From contig CANNQU010000034.1 of NCBI GenBank assembly GCA_947507965.1, forward strand, positions 1 to 35,593: a stretch of DNA of 35,593 nucleotides. Direction: 5' to 3'. The translations under genes and the position numbers were made by a program. Positions 31,253-35,593 of this stretch are shown here, piece after piece (position 1 is the stretch's first letter; each line of letters opens with the position of its first letter). A model generated the notes under the pieces. The model searched no databases, had not been told where the DNA came from, and worked only from the letters and a program-made list of their open reading frames with translations. This stretch comes from Bacteroidota bacterium. Lineage in GTDB: Bacteria > Bacteroidota > Bacteroidia > UKL13-3.

Positions 31253-34200
31253 CTACCTGATCAGCGTTATAATTCCTTTTTGCGTTTTCACCTCTTCGCC
31301 ACGAAACTGGTATTCGAATTTAAAATAATATTCGCCGGGAGGAAGTGCAGCACCGCTATTTTTCACATTTCCATTCCAATTATTACCATCATTATCCAGG
31401 CCATCGACGTCAGTATTAAAAACCAATGCGCCCCAGCGATTGTATATACTTAAATGGTAACCTATTTCACCATGAATATCAATATCAAAAACATCATTAA
31501 CACCATCATTATTAATCGTAAATACATTGGGTATAATCAATAATCGGTAATTGGTATTTCGATACGGCAGACATACCGAATCCTCGCAACCATAGGCATT
31601 GTATGAGGTAAGACAAATATTGAAAACACCCGTATCATTCAAAAAGTCATGCTGGGTATTGAACTCATTACTCCTGTTTTTTGCACCCGATTGTGGATGC
31701 CCAAAATCCCAAAGATAAGTATGGGCACCGATGCTAGAATTATTGAATTTAATTAAAGGAGCCATCGTAGTATCCATGGTAAAACCCGAGGTTAAATCAA
31801 CAACAACTATTTTCTTAGTGAAGGTATCCGGACATTCCTTTTGATTTACCAGAGGCTGGTAATTTGGCTTTAGGGTAACCCAATACGTTCCTATCTTCTT
31901 ATAGCTATAGGAGGCATTGGTATCAGGGCGTAGGCGCAATTCAATGGTAGAGTCGCCATAATCCCACGAGTAAAAATCGTATCTCTTGTCGGATATGTTG
32001 GTGATGTCAAAGGTAGTATTCACACATATCGTATCGGGCATCAAAAATTTCACTGGTGGTTTTGCTAATACCACGATACGTATCAGTTTAGCTTTCGGAT
32101 TGGTTTTATCGGGATACCATGCACTGCAATACACATTGGAACCCGTATTAGGATTTACAAAAGAGGCTTCTCCAAAAATATAAATAGAATAGACTCCCGG
32201 ATTTTGGTAAGTAAATGAGAGCGTATCATTTTCCTTTAATACAAAATTCGTATTTCCGGCATCGCCCATATATATAATGTTTCGGTCGCATGCTGCTGAA
32301 CTATTTCGAAGCATAATGGTATAGGGTGCGCACCCCACTGAATCGGTAAGTAGCTGGAACATGGGTATTGGACCAGCAATACTAATTTTAATGATCACGC
32401 TATCTTCACATCCTTTCCATGTTTTCACTTTTAGCTTCACAAAAAAATCTCCATTAACAAAATAAGCATGTGCCGGATTTTTTAGCGTGCTTGGAGCCCT
32501 TAGATCACCAAAATCCCATATCCATGAACTGATGCTATCTTGTGGCACCATATCGCTTGAATCTTTGACCCAAGAGGAGTCAATAAATTGCACGATTTGC
32601 CCACATACCAGAATTTTCGGGTTCCATGTAAAGTTTACATGCAGTTCATTTAATTTAATGATCTTCTCTATCGAATCGACACAACCATTGGTATCGGTGG
32701 CAATGAGTTTTACTGTATATCTACCGGCTTTCAAATACCGATGTTTCGGTGCGATGCCCGTATCTATGGCCCCATCCCCAAAGGACCATTGTAACGCTCC
32801 AACCCATTTCCGATAAGGGTTGAAAACATCATAAGGGTCGCTCCAATTATAAACGCTACTACTGAAACGAACTTCTTGAGAATTACAGACAATTATGTTA
32901 TATGCAAAGTTGAAATAAAATCCAACACCGAACACAAGGGTCGTATCAAAAACACATCCACCTCCAGTGCGTAAGGTATCATATAAAGCGAGTTTAACAG
33001 CATAGGTGCCATTCTTTTGAAAGGTATGGATTTGTTTTTTTACATATCCGTTAACAACTGGCGAGTCAAGGGTTGAAGTGCCGTCGCCCCAATCCCAGAT
33101 GGCTTTGGTACAGGACCCTTGAAGCGTGTCAAAAATAGCAGTAGATGTAGTAAACGGGGCACATCCTTTGGTATTGGTGAGGCTAAAGCGAGGATGTAAT
33201 CGAGGGAAATGTTTTACGAGATAAAAAGTGTCGTAACAATTCCCATTTTTTATCATAAAACCACTTACAGCGGAATCGCCACTGCAGGTGCTATTAATAC
33301 GATAACTAAAATTCTGTTTCGGCATTTTTATCCATGCATAGCCTATGCAAAGGGTATCCTTAACGAACCAAAATTCTTCTAAATCACAGAGCGGTTTTAC
33401 TGCAGAAAAATCAACAGACTGTAAAGCCCCTAAACAATTTATCCCTCCTACTTTTAACTTCGATAGATCAGGTCGGCCGATTACTATTTCTATCCTATCG
33501 CTATCGATGCAGCCACTAAGTGTGTCCCATAAAAGGAGCCTGACAGCATAACATCCCGTGTCGGAATAGTTGTGCTTAACATCGAATGAATCGGTACTCC
33601 AACGGCAATTAAAACCCACATTAATTCCGTTGCGTGTATCGGTTGTACATTGAGCACAGTGGGTGTCGGCAAAATCCCAGAGACGTTTAATACTTGGGCT
33701 GCAATGCCTCGACTGGTAGCTTGTAGGCGACACAAAAAAGGCCGTATCAGGAGTGCACATATAATGGTTTATCACCTTATATGGAGCTATCGTATCGAGT
33801 TCGATATGTGCTTGCGGCCCTTGCACTTCAATGGTATCATAGAGCACGGTATCACATAAGCCACTTTTAATATCAAGTGAAATAATATACTTGCCACAAA
33901 GTGGAAAACTATATTTCGCTGTATTCCCGAAAACCACATTTTTCCAAGTAGCCGTTCCTTCTTCTTTGTACCTCCACGACATGATGGCACCAGGATTGGG
34001 GGGATTGAAAAAATTAAACTCGTTACCTCTTGAACACATTTTCTTTTTGTCTTCGGTGAGATTAACATTAAAACGGTAAAGCGGACAAACACTTACTGAT
34101 TTTATATCGCTGCATCCGTAACGCGATTGAATAAAAAGTTTCACCACATAAGGGCATTTTGCAATATTGTTAAAGCTGTGTATAATATTGTAATAGTTCG

Positions 34201-34912
34201 TGTTGGAACTATCAAATGTACCATCGCCAAAATCCCAATAGAAACGTTTGACATTGATAAGTGCGTAAGCATTTATGTTATTAAAAGAAACGGTTCCACA
34301 ACGAATGAGTGTCATCTGTAGTTGAATTTTCAGGTCATCTACCACCCTCACCGATTTTTCAATTCTGGAGATACATCCATTGGTATCTTCTACCTCAAGA
34401 CTGATAACAAAGTTTCCTGTCTTAGTATAGTTGTGACATGGATTATTAACATTATATACGATGGCTCCATCACCGAAAAGAAATGTCACTTTTCGTATGG
34501 GGGCGCCACTGCTGCCTAATTGGGTGGTATTGGTAACGCAGAGCGGAACAGATAGGCAAAAGGTATCTCTGCTTTTCGTGAAGTCGGCCTGAGGTAAATC
34601 AAAGACTCGTATGGGTTGCGAAACAACGGCAGTACACGATGTATTATTCGTAAATTTAACGATGACCATTGCCATATAACTACCCACATTTGAATAAATA
34701 TGTGCCGCACTAAGCAGGGTATCGGATGCTCCGTCGCCAAAAGTCCAGCTGGTTTTCGATACGATGCCTGTGGTATTTAAAGTAAAGACTACCGAACTCC
34801 CCAAACACACTTTGTAGGCCGATGGTGTGATGTTACAAGATTGACTGTTTCCTTTGAAAAAAGAAGAAAAGAAAAAAATGAAGATCAGAATTTTATAAAT
34901 CAAAGTATTCAT
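31253..34912 (-). CDS. Large PKD-repeat cell-surface protein with type-B T9SS sorting domain
   Basis: This 1219-residue protein is complete. A signal peptide (MNTLIYKILIFIFFFSSFF) is followed by about nine PKD-type beta-sandwich domains, recognised by W/Y-x-FGDG-like motifs (SWTFGDG, FYWDFGDG, AIWDWGDG, LQWSFGDG, WIWDFGD, YSWDYGDS, YLWDFGHP). It has many cysteines, suggesting disulfides. The last 100 residues form the gliding-motility-associated CHU_C/type-B sorting domain: IPNVFTINNDGVNDVF, YNRWGALVF, WNGNVKNSG, LPPGEYYFKFEY. This domain directs export through T9SS. The likely role is adhesion, gliding support or matrix binding. It has no adjacent PorP/SprF partner, which type-B substrates often have. 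Confidence 0.92.
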   Translation of the reverse strand: MNTLIYKILIFIFFFSSFFKGNSQSCNITPSAYKVCLGSSVVFTLNTTGIVSKTSWTFGDGASDTLLSAAHIYSNVGSYMAMVIVKFTNNTSCTAVVSQPIRVFDLPQADFTKSRDTFCLSVPLCVTNTTQLGSSGAPIRKVTFLFGDGAIVYNVNNPCHNYTKTGNFVISLEVEDTNGCISRIEKSVRVVDDLKIQLQMTLIRCGTVSFNNINAYALINVKRFYWDFGDGTFDSSNTNYYNIIHSFNNIAKCPYVVKLFIQSRYGCSDIKSVSVCPLYRFNVNLTEDKKKMCSRGNEFNFFNPPNPGAIMSWRYKEEGTATWKNVVFGNTAKYSFPLCGKYIISLDIKSGLCDTVLYDTIEVQGPQAHIELDTIAPYKVINHYMCTPDTAFFVSPTSYQSRHCSPSIKRLWDFADTHCAQCTTDTRNGINVGFNCRWSTDSFDVKHNYSDTGCYAVRLLLWDTLSGCIDSDRIEIVIGRPDLSKLKVGGINCLGALQSVDFSAVKPLCDLEEFWFVKDTLCIGYAWIKMPKQNFSYRINSTCSGDSAVSGFMIKNGNCYDTFYLVKHFPRLHPRFSLTNTKGCAPFTTSTAIFDTLQGSCTKAIWDWGDGTSTLDSPVVNGYVKKQIHTFQKNGTYAVKLALYDTLRTGGGCVFDTTLVFGVGFYFNFAYNIIVCNSQEVRFSSSVYNWSDPYDVFNPYRKWVGALQWSFGDGAIDTGIAPKHRYLKAGRYTVKLIATDTNGCVDSIEKIIKLNELHVNFTWNPKILVCGQIVQFIDSSWVKDSSDMVPQDSISSWIWDFGDLRAPSTLKNPAHAYFVNGDFFVKLKVKTWKGCEDSVIIKISIAGPIPMFQLLTDSVGCAPYTIMLRNSSAACDRNIIYMGDAGNTNFVLKENDTLSFTYQNPGVYSIYIFGEASFVNPNTGSNVYCSAWYPDKTNPKAKLIRIVVLAKPPVKFLMPDTICVNTTFDITNISDKRYDFYSWDYGDSTIELRLRPDTNASYSYKKIGTYWVTLKPNYQPLVNQKECPDTFTKKIVVVDLTSGFTMDTTMAPLIKFNNSSIGAHTYLWDFGHPQSGAKNRSNEFNTQHDFLNDTGVFNICLTSYNAYGCEDSVCLPYRNTNYRLLIIPNVFTINNDGVNDVFDIDIHGEIGYHLSIYNRWGALVFNTDVDGLDNDGNNWNGNVKNSGAALPPGEYYFKFEYQFRGEEVKTQKGIITLIR

Positions 34913-35089: not shown

Positions 35090-35125
35090 ATGGCATCAGA
35101 TAAATGGCATTTCTCGTGCTTTTTT

Positions 35126-35195
35126 TGAGATCCTTCCTTTGTCAGGATGACAATACAACAGGGTCAATGCATCCGGTTTTCCGTCGCTTCATGAG
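35126..35195 (+). repeat. Repeat B, copy 1 (70 nt)
   Basis: It begins TGAGATCCTTCCTTTGTCAG and is identical to copy 2 (35241-35310) except for one base (69 of 70). The starts are 115 bases apart. The intervening 45 bases are T- and G-rich and are themselves loosely repeated. Confidence 0.9.
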
Positions 35196-35240
35196 TGGGT
35201 TGATGGTTGATGATGAGCGGTATTTTTTCGTGTTGGTTTT

Positions 35241-35310
35241 TGAGATCCTTCCTTTGTCAGGATGACAATACAACAGGGTCAATGCATCCGGCTTTCCGTC
35301 GCTTCATGAG
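35241..35310 (+). repeat. Repeat B, copy 2 (70 nt)
   Basis: Second tandem copy of the 70-nt unit, followed by a diverged spacer (TTTTTTCGTGTTGGTTT shared with the spacer before it) and the shortened third copy at 35355. Confidence 0.9.
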
Positions 35311-35355
35311 GGTGTTGGTGGTTGCTGATGAATGGCGTTTTTTCGTGTTGGTTTT

Positions 35356-35477
35356 GAGATCCTTCCTGCGACTAGACAATACAACAGCGTGTATTTACTA
35401 AAAACACTCCAACCTTCAGGCTTACATTATCCCTAATAATAAGTGTTGTATTGTCATCCTGACGAAGGAAGGATCTC
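35356..35477. mobile_element. MITE/REP-like 122-nt element with terminal inverted repeats
   Basis: The left end GAGATCCTTCCT (35356-35367) is the exact reverse complement of the right end AGGAAGGATCTC (35466-35477). Just inside, GACAATACAAC (35375-35385) is the exact reverse complement of GTTGTATTGTC (35445-35455). The left arm is a shortened third copy of repeat B with a 3-base deletion. The right arm is an inverted copy of the B start differing at one base of 33. Repeat A copy 2 (35391-35448) fills the centre. No transposase is inside. It may be a non-autonomous mobile or REP-like palindromic repeat; the mechanism is unknown. Confidence 0.6.
35391..35448 (+). repeat. Repeat A, copy 2 (58 nt)
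   Basis: Gap-free partner of 35032-35089 at an offset of 359 bases. It forms the core between the inverted arms of the 122-nt element. Confidence 0.7.
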
Positions 35478-35593
35478 TTGTATTTCATCATTGAAAAACT
35501 TCCATTCTGGATTAAAAGCAGTGATAAGGGTTTCTTTGTCCTTACTTGACCAGCATTGGAAATTAAGCTTAACCCAGTACATCAAATTCGGAA
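35454..35593 (-). CDS. Partial frame resembling the C-terminus of a GIY-YIG nuclease (runs off right edge)
   Basis: On the minus strand a frame enters from the window edge and encodes 45 residues before a TGA at 35456-35454. The segment WSSKDKETLITAFNPEWKFF followed by NDEIQEI resembles the C-terminal helix and NPEW-type ending of small GIY-YIG family proteins (inferred from motif memory; the catalytic GIY and YIG motifs would lie outside the window). The final codons, reading EILPSSG, and the stop are contributed by the inverted repeat at 35445-35477, so the native end has either been replaced by, or evolved with, the repeat. It could also be a pseudogene fragment. Confidence 0.4.
   Translation of the reverse strand, partial: PNLMYWVKLNFQCWSSKDKETLITAFNPEWKFFNDEIQEILPSSG

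Follow-up and report, generated by a model that had tools for sequence, protein, structure and literature searches.

Does a palindromic repeat at the end of a contig, running into a reading frame that resembles the C-terminus of a GIY-YIG nuclease, belong to that nuclease, as REP sequences belong to RAYT proteins? An earlier note raised this question for the window, by which we mean the whole 35,593-nt stretch of DNA that was analysed, contig C34 of a 3.36-Mb genome in 147 contigs. The 122-nt palindrome that it described is real: it occupies positions 35356-35477, within the final 240 bases of the window, and has outer arms (GAGATCCTTCCT / AGGAAGGATCTC) that are exact over 12 nt. The inner arms (GACAATACAACA / TGTTGTATTGTC, at 35375-35386 and 35444-35455), given there as 11 nt, are likewise exact over 12 nt. 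Two further arms, at 35127-35160 and 35242-35275, lie inside two 115-nt tandem units (Table 1) and pair at 97% with the 34-nt arm at 35444-35477, of which the predicted hairpin is weak, at -3.7 kcal/mol, with a stem of about 5 bp and a loop of 9 nt (RNA parameters). The motif GATCCTTCCTTYGTCAGGAT has 91 copies genome-wide at up to two mismatches, against none for the reversed control, which agrees with the description of the repeat as dispersed and REP-like. The same 34-nt arm supplies the residues E-I-L-P-S-S-G and the stop to the minus-strand frame at 35454-35591. The observation of a palindrome joined to a reading frame is therefore correct, and lies far beyond chance. Elsewhere in the window, the minus strand at 31253-34912 encodes a 1219-aa protein with PKD-like repeats, the C-terminal stretch of which resembles a gliding-motility/type IX sorting domain.

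Table 1. Features at the right-hand end of the window (positions are those of the window).
Feature	Position	Strand	Basis or remark
115-nt tandem unit 1, with one TGTC-tagged REP arm	35122..35236	+	92 matches genome-wide
REP arm TGTCATCCTGACAAAGGAAGGATCT, TGTC tag followed by hairpin	35128..35152	-	sequence also found upstream of the intact GIY-YIG gene on C12
115-nt tandem unit 2	35237..35351	+	92% identity to unit 1
REP arm, second copy of the TGTCATCCTGACAAAGGAAGGATCT-type arm	35243..35267	-	
Left arm of the 122-nt palindrome, degenerate and partly missing	35356..35387	-	
REP arm TGTCATCCTGACGAAGGAAGGATCT, overlapping the end of the minus-strand frame and giving its stop	35452..35476	+	an arm of identical sequence adjoins the intact gene (C12:57387)
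Frame of 45 aa that runs off the contig, a fossil GIY-YIG C-terminus joined to the end of an element	35454..35591	-	translation, paralogous copies, Pfam
Homology over 80 nt (94%) with the 3' end of gene C12:57389-57724, which is intact	35478..35557	-	
Terminal segment of a mobile element (about 30 copies), truncated where the contig stops	35558..35593	-	11 other copies continue to ...CAAATTCGGAATAACCC

The frame had been read as the end of a GIY-YIG-like gene. Its DNA relation to such a gene is genuine: 80 nt are shared with the intact gene on contig C12, and in both the E-I-L-P-S-S-G codons and the stop are derived from an arm. Past this stretch the window frame diverges from the C12 gene, and Pfam and NCBIfam contain no match to it at E ≤ 1. 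For positions 35478-35593 the genome contains 33 matches, namely 27 that reach its end (the window included), five partial ones and the 80 nt of the C12 gene. In the 11 other copies that we read, the frame runs into the element end ...CAAATTCGGAATAACCC with no nuclease domain, and different DNA follows each time. Extending the frame had been proposed as a way to recover the nuclease; since the contig ends here we judged this on the 11 paralogous copies, which yield no GIY and YIG motifs, and the window frame itself has neither these motifs nor the catalytic R and E. The homology limited to 80 nt, the paralogous copies and the lack of a Pfam match together rule out the window frame as the end of a working nuclease, and what was thought to be an intact gene is a fossil.

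All 11 copies that we read are situated no more than about 100 nt from the end of their contig, which accounts for the end of the window at this point. Longer copies start with the inverted counterpart GGGTTATTCCGAATTTGATGTGCTGG and variants of it. The same inverted ends also bound a Y1 (HUH) transposase gene (G000:C52:1505-2391, L130), the remnant of another Y1 gene, where 11 nt (GTTACGAAGTT) may be a target duplication (C39:11858, L124), and family-2 repeats (C25:41403-41621, L128). Because the inverted ends GGGTTATTCC... bound these other cargos too, we took them as a separate element and rejected them as part of the REP system. The window thus ends within this element of about 30 copies, into which a repeat cluster and the 3' end of a nuclease gene have been captured.

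The genome contains three matches to PF01541: two small genes, on contigs C12 and C57, and a 610-aa frame on C29, which from its size we presume to be UvrC. The C12 gene encodes a 111-aa protein that scores 54.9 bits against PF01541 (curated cut-off 22.6). It lies between TGTCATCCTGACAAAGGAAGGATCT upstream and an inverted TGTCATCCTGACGAAGGAAGGATCT that overlaps its stop, and four more arms follow downstream. The linkage of repeat and nuclease suggested by the window is therefore found at an intact gene, with inverted arms on both sides and the last codons and stop supplied by one of them. The C57 gene lies between copies of a different repeat family, CGTCAT(G/A)CAGAGG, and neither repeat motif is present at the C29 locus. 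Across 102 model positions, 26 member proteins share invariant Y13, R34, H38, E74 and N93 and a nearly invariant G26, which we take to be the motif and catalytic residues of the GIY-YIG domain. At E ≤ 0.01 this alignment has just two sequence relatives in the PDB, the UPF0213 proteins 1zg2 and 1ywl (2.5e-8 and 5.4e-7), which, like the C12 group, consist of a stand-alone minimal GIY-YIG domain.

Enrichment of the arm near GIY-YIG genes was a check that the earlier note had asked for. A scan with the two small proteins, of C12 and C57 (alignment A1), gave 79 loci, the best 79 of 524, which carry 47 genus-level labels and include one Chlorobiota and one Neomarinimicrobiota record. Fifteen of them, when read, showed one layout with genome-specific letters, and from these 15 we derived the arm pattern TGTCATYYNGAN{3,22}RRATCT. 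Arm density falls from 5.75/kb at 0-250 nt from the GIY genes to 1.97 at 250-500 nt, 0.65 at 500-1000 nt and 0.13/kb at 1-2 kb, and reaches 0.028/kb at 7-10 kb, whilst the reversed pattern has no match in the 79 loci. An arm lies within about 250 nt of 64/79 GIY genes as against 46/883 other ORFs of the same loci. The loci that were unread when the pattern was made behave alike (an arm within 1 kb in 50/64), and the enrichment is also seen within intergenic DNA, with 8.3 arms/kb within 500 nt of the GIY gene versus 0.37/kb beyond 1 kb. At least one locus with a nearby arm was found under 38 of the 47 labels; a nearby arm is absent from 15 of the 79 loci and from nine labels, including Hymenobacter, Roseivirga, Croceivirga and the Neomarinimicrobiota record. 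Among 29 further top-scoring GIY loci, taken from a set of 247 genomes, 18 have an arm within 1 kb and 15 have shared direct repeats. A lack of enrichment, which the earlier note had named as a refutation, is thus clearly contradicted, and the general idea of a coupling of nuclease and repeat is supported, whereas the copy in the window is a fossil.

Shared direct repeats, defined as at least five 13-mers common, in direct orientation, to the two 300-nt flanks, are present at 45 of the 76 GIY loci with full flanks. The same definition applies to 17/881 other ORFs of these loci, to 12/145 ORFs that have intergenic DNA of 100 nt or more on each side and to 10/164 small ORFs. Direct repeats at both ends were nevertheless rejected as the basic form, as many other loci show the simplest arrangement, a single inverted pair. 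We also rejected a simple code of one nuclease for one arm: across 81 loci, arm and nuclease similarity show a weak correlation (Mantel r 0.21, p 0.001, without control for phylogeny). The genome of L264 has arms like those of the window and a nuclease that is not close to the C12 protein.

Whole genomes were counted in the same way. In the 19 genomes behind the loci, which came from a pick of 15 with and five without shared direct repeats, the number of arms ranges from 6 to 116, and that of the reversed control from 0 to 2. Arms within 1 kb of a GIY gene exceed the uniform expectation in 19/19 genomes, with Poisson P values of 3e-2 to 3e-46 that serve as guides because arrays break independence. 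In the five strongest genomes, one GIY gene has 6/6 (L134), 16/24 (L137), 18/30, 18/46 and 19/46 of the arms within 1 kb of it. In a set of 247 genomes from the class to which the window belongs, at least five arms occur in 44/115 with the nuclease (E ≤ 1e-15) versus 12/132 without it (Fisher p 4e-8, phylogeny not controlled). Fewer than five arms of this pattern are found in 71 of the 115 nuclease-bearing genomes, and G057, G080, G143 and G256 have 26 to 125 arms with no nuclease match at E ≤ 1e-15. Many of the arms listed in G080, G143 and G256 form pairs of reverse polarity, - then +, at a distance of about 105 nt.

The arms beside the gene have preferred orientations. Over 108 loci (79 plus 29), the nearest arm on the left is + in 49/72 (p 0.003) and the nearest on the right is - in 52/73 (p 0.0004). 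Both together, a full + / - bracket, are seen at 31 of 63 loci that have an arm to the left and one to the right, twice the 15.75 of random orientation but no more than the 30.5 that follow from the one-sided preferences alone; for 16 minus-strand loci left and right refer to the contig, and the bracket is unaffected by this. Dispersed copies in Thermonema, for which 65 of 116 places were listed, show the same polarity with no gene: 19/24 close pairs are + then -, and 17 of these 19 are spaced 22-36 nt.

Chryseobacterium provides the most compact form of the unit, in which TGTCATTCTGAACG...GAAGAATCT is followed by 15-67 bases, the gene and an inverted arm that starts 2-5 nt past the protein match or overlaps it. 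Ten Chryseobacterium loci have the unit at one syntenic site; it can therefore be inherited vertically, and its movement is not frequent. At L177, a homologous REP-GIY-REP unit of 392 bp occupies a second, non-homologous place, and its alignment with L174 stops at the arms. When 1.7 kb of L177 was compared with 78 Chryseobacterium genomes, 74 gave a match. Among the matches listed, eight are to the unit alone, six of them beginning at query position 642-643 and four finishing at 1034, where the L177 unit has its TGTC and TGACA ends.

Comparison with relatives, which the earlier note had suggested as a way to find empty sites, was informative here for one site in one genus. In 22 of the 30 relatives that we read, the flanks are just 29-61 nt apart, versus 613 in L177, and this empty site is a terminator-like hairpin with a CGTC/TGTC arm in 0/22 gaps. 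The gap measures 511-526 nt in seven other relatives (an unrelated gene in the three that were translated) and 164 nt in one, likewise with no arm. At this site the unit is thus present or absent as a whole, with its boundaries at the repeats; by eye, we noticed no target-site duplication at the unit. Because the empty site of the 22 relatives holds no arm, we concluded that arms and gene arrived together at this Chryseobacterium site. The gene itself may decay in place: at least five of the 79 GIY-YIG frames are interrupted early (L138, L149, L165, L174 and L207), and L149, L165 and L174 keep REP arms on both sides despite their early stops, as for a decaying selfish gene.

The arrangement extends to other phyla. 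A tblastn search of a plasmid collection with the C12 protein matched 32 records, of which we read 16; 14 other listed records come from genera already read. By eye, tagged palindromes lie on both sides of the GIY gene in 14 of the 16: Spirosoma, Planktothrix, three Shinella, Neorhizobium, Rhizobium CIAT894, Azospirillum, Novosphingobium and Sphingobium (both with a CGTC/TGTC tag without AT), N. gonorrhoeae (dRS3), Aeromonas and two Sinorhizobium (CCTC tag). The bracketed gene was thus seen in Alpha-, Beta- and Gammaproteobacteria and in a cyanobacterium. Photobacterium has tagged palindromes downstream only, and Rhizobium K1/93 has no tagged palindrome beside the GIY gene; seven unread Rhizobium records match the query as K1/93 does and may lack such palindromes too. 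By a strict script, 6 of the first 13 records have tagged stems within 500 nt of the gene, a hit inside the Sphingobium gene being excluded. Counted in six records, those within 500 nt of the gene make up 2/9, 4/10 (the Rhizobium plasmid), 2/127, 3/10, 9/208 and 2/7 (the Aeromonas record, in 4.9 Mb) of those in the whole record. We regard it as near certain that this nuclease group is physically linked with CGTC/TGTC REPs across phyla.

Several of these records deserve a description of their own. In Azospirillum lipoferum (L308) the REP-GIY-REP unit lies between sufB and sufC, and the unannotated Shinella copy (L315) follows an apparent SufB C-terminus. On Planktothrix agardhii plasmid p1 (L301), the bracketed GIY-YIG gene has an MmeI-type restriction gene on one side and drmA of a DISARM system on the other. 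The 'plasmid' records of N. gonorrhoeae (L310, 2.17 Mb), Aeromonas (L312, 4.9 Mb) and Shinella (L315, 4.6 Mb) are chromosome-sized and probably mislabelled.

The tags of these arms correspond to a known class. Di Nocera et al. (2013; PMC3733652) divide bacterial REPs into GTAG and CGTC superfamilies, and describe CGTC REPs as a CGTC tag, in many cases replaced by TGTC or CCTC, with AT and a short stem-loop after it, and with dimers in opposite orientation. According to the same authors they occur in five phyla (Proteobacteria, Chlorobi, Bacteroidetes, Spirochaetes and Thermotogae), include Neisseria dRS3 (= CGTC-1) and Rickettsia RPE-6/RPE-4, and apparently lack a dedicated transposase; the authors report no tyrosine transposase gene flanked by CGTC REPs, and their main text mentions GIY-YIG nowhere. 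The window-type arms share the tag, the AT and the dimer layout with this class. They begin TGTCAT, and five typed arms are predicted to fold as hairpins (RNA parameters), with TGTC unpaired in the folded Chryseobacterium, Thermonema and Flavobacteriia arms. Dispersal is seen in the motif copies of the window genome, and inverted dimers in the + then - pairs of Thermonema. The class has a regular stem of 8-9 bp with a loop of 4-5 nt (PMC3733652), as do the arms at the GIY genes of Shinella, Rhizobium CIAT894, Azospirillum, Photobacterium, Neisseria and Aeromonas, whereas the Bacteroidota arms are looser and less regular and have longer loops, the window arm among them. By tag and layout, the Bacteroidota arms thus seem to fit a looser branch of the CGTC-tagged REPs.

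Taken together, we think it fairly probable that the small stand-alone GIY-YIG nuclease is the dedicated enzyme of the CGTC/TGTC-tagged REPs that bracket it. That the nuclease mobilises the REPs would be the simplest account of the flanking, the co-movement, the REP-free empty site and the absent link to Y1 genes. We lean slightly towards a wider proposal, in which stand-alone GIY-YIG nucleases would be the missing enzyme of the whole CGTC superfamily, dRS3 included and perhaps the Rickettsia RPEs, and would cut the tagged hairpins; such units would form a class of REP-based mobile elements with a GIY-YIG nuclease as their sole protein. The weak covariation of arm and protein, the REP-rich genomes without the gene and the gene-bearing genomes with few arms argue against mobilisation by the nuclease.

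Under the preferred reading, in which the nuclease moves the REPs, the autonomous unit would be REP(+)-GIY-YIG gene-REP(-), of about 400 bp, in which the downstream REP often abuts the stop codon or overlaps it. The REPs that are dispersed singly, as dimers or in tandem arrays would be gene-less derivatives on which the nuclease acts in trans. The two arms may fold out as TGTC-tagged hairpins or as a cruciform, the nuclease would then cut at the boundary of tag and hairpin, and host replication and repair would join either the unit itself or its copy to another location. To our knowledge, GIY-YIG enzymes hydrolyse DNA without a covalent intermediate, and therefore rejoining would need the host. 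The window would represent a by-product, in which a REP cluster and the last 80 nt of a nuclease gene were captured between GGGTTATTCCGAATTTGATGTGCTGG ends and multiplied to about 30 copies.

An alternative that we consider unlikely, yet worth weighing, is that the nuclease is a free-standing homing endonuclease using pre-existing REPs as target and homology, the REPs having spread by other means before the gene colonised them. Such colonisation would suit the REP-rich genomes without a detected nuclease (12/132 with at least five arms, one with 125) and the shared direct repeats on both sides of 45/76 genes, which look like landing in an array; it suits less well the genomes and records in which all or most arms, or a large share of them, lie at the nuclease locus (6/6 and 16/24, and 4/10 and 2/7 for the Rhizobium plasmid and the Aeromonas record). 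In Chryseobacterium the arms came with the gene, into a site that held no arm (0/22) and that is not homologous to the usual one. At the level of the protein, free-standing GIY-YIG homing endonucleases of phages and introns have the catalytic domain PF01541 in common with the C12-type nuclease. Weak matches to homing-endonuclease models (TIGR01453, phrog_7168), below cut-off, speak in favour of this alternative; the score against the group I intron endonuclease model is 24 bits, far short of its cut-off of 56. Unlike the homing enzymes, the C12-type nuclease is bracketed by hairpin repeats and was found at a non-homologous site.

It is very unlikely that the REPs gather at these genes for regulatory reasons, as terminators or at the mRNA ends of a tolerant small gene, with the protein having no role. 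The start of the inverted arm does lie at -30 to +20 nt of the protein-match end in 28/79 loci, and the single insertion site that we studied resembles a terminator. The remaining ORFs of these loci, however, are not flanked in this way, whether by arms (46/883) or by direct repeats (17/881, and 10/164 for small ORFs), opposite arm orientations are preferred on the two sides of the gene, and gene and arms moved together in Chryseobacterium.

REP/RAYT systems (REPtrons, REPINs) resemble the arrangement described here in having a small enzyme gene bracketed by inverted REPs, dispersed REPs and inverted dimers; they differ in that the enzyme is a HUH/Y1 tyrosine transposase and the tag GTAG, where we find a GIY-YIG nuclease and CGTC/TGTC. 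The analogy drawn in the earlier note is thus apt as a comparison, with an enzyme from another superfamily. We surveyed Y1 genes in 20 genomes (the 19 plus G000), where PF01797 has 34 matches, in 15 genomes. Loci were available for 30 of the 34, and these 30 loci (97 kb) contain no arm, so a HUH Y1 gene flanked by the present REPs, the hallmark of a RAYT, was not seen. Five of the 20 genomes have arms and the nuclease but no Y1 match at E ≤ 0.001. Shared direct repeats of other kinds were found at 8/24 Y1 loci (six of the 30, mostly weak or partial matches, were left out), as expected for RAYTs. That a Y1 (IS200/IS605-like, RAYT) transposase moves the REPs, with the GIY-YIG gene a passenger between two of them, is highly improbable: REP plus RAYT is a known kind, most of the genomes have at least one PF01797 match, and a Y1 gene of the window genome shares its flanking inverted ends, GGGTTATT..., with the window element, but arms are absent from the Y1 loci, a quarter of the genomes combine arms and nuclease with no Y1 match, and Di Nocera et al. 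(PMC3733652) report no tyrosine transposase gene with CGTC REPs at its flanks.

Among the papers listed from the open-licence PMC literature (without preprints), we saw none joining GIY-YIG with REPs or dRS3. A nuclease gene bracketed by CGTC-tagged REPs in several phyla provides a single, testable candidate for their missing enzyme. If the nuclease does move these repeats, GIY-YIG would be added to the nuclease classes that spread REP-type DNA, which would help to explain why one hairpin layout (TGTCATTC...GAATCT, CGTCATTCCC...GGGAATCC) is common to distant genomes.
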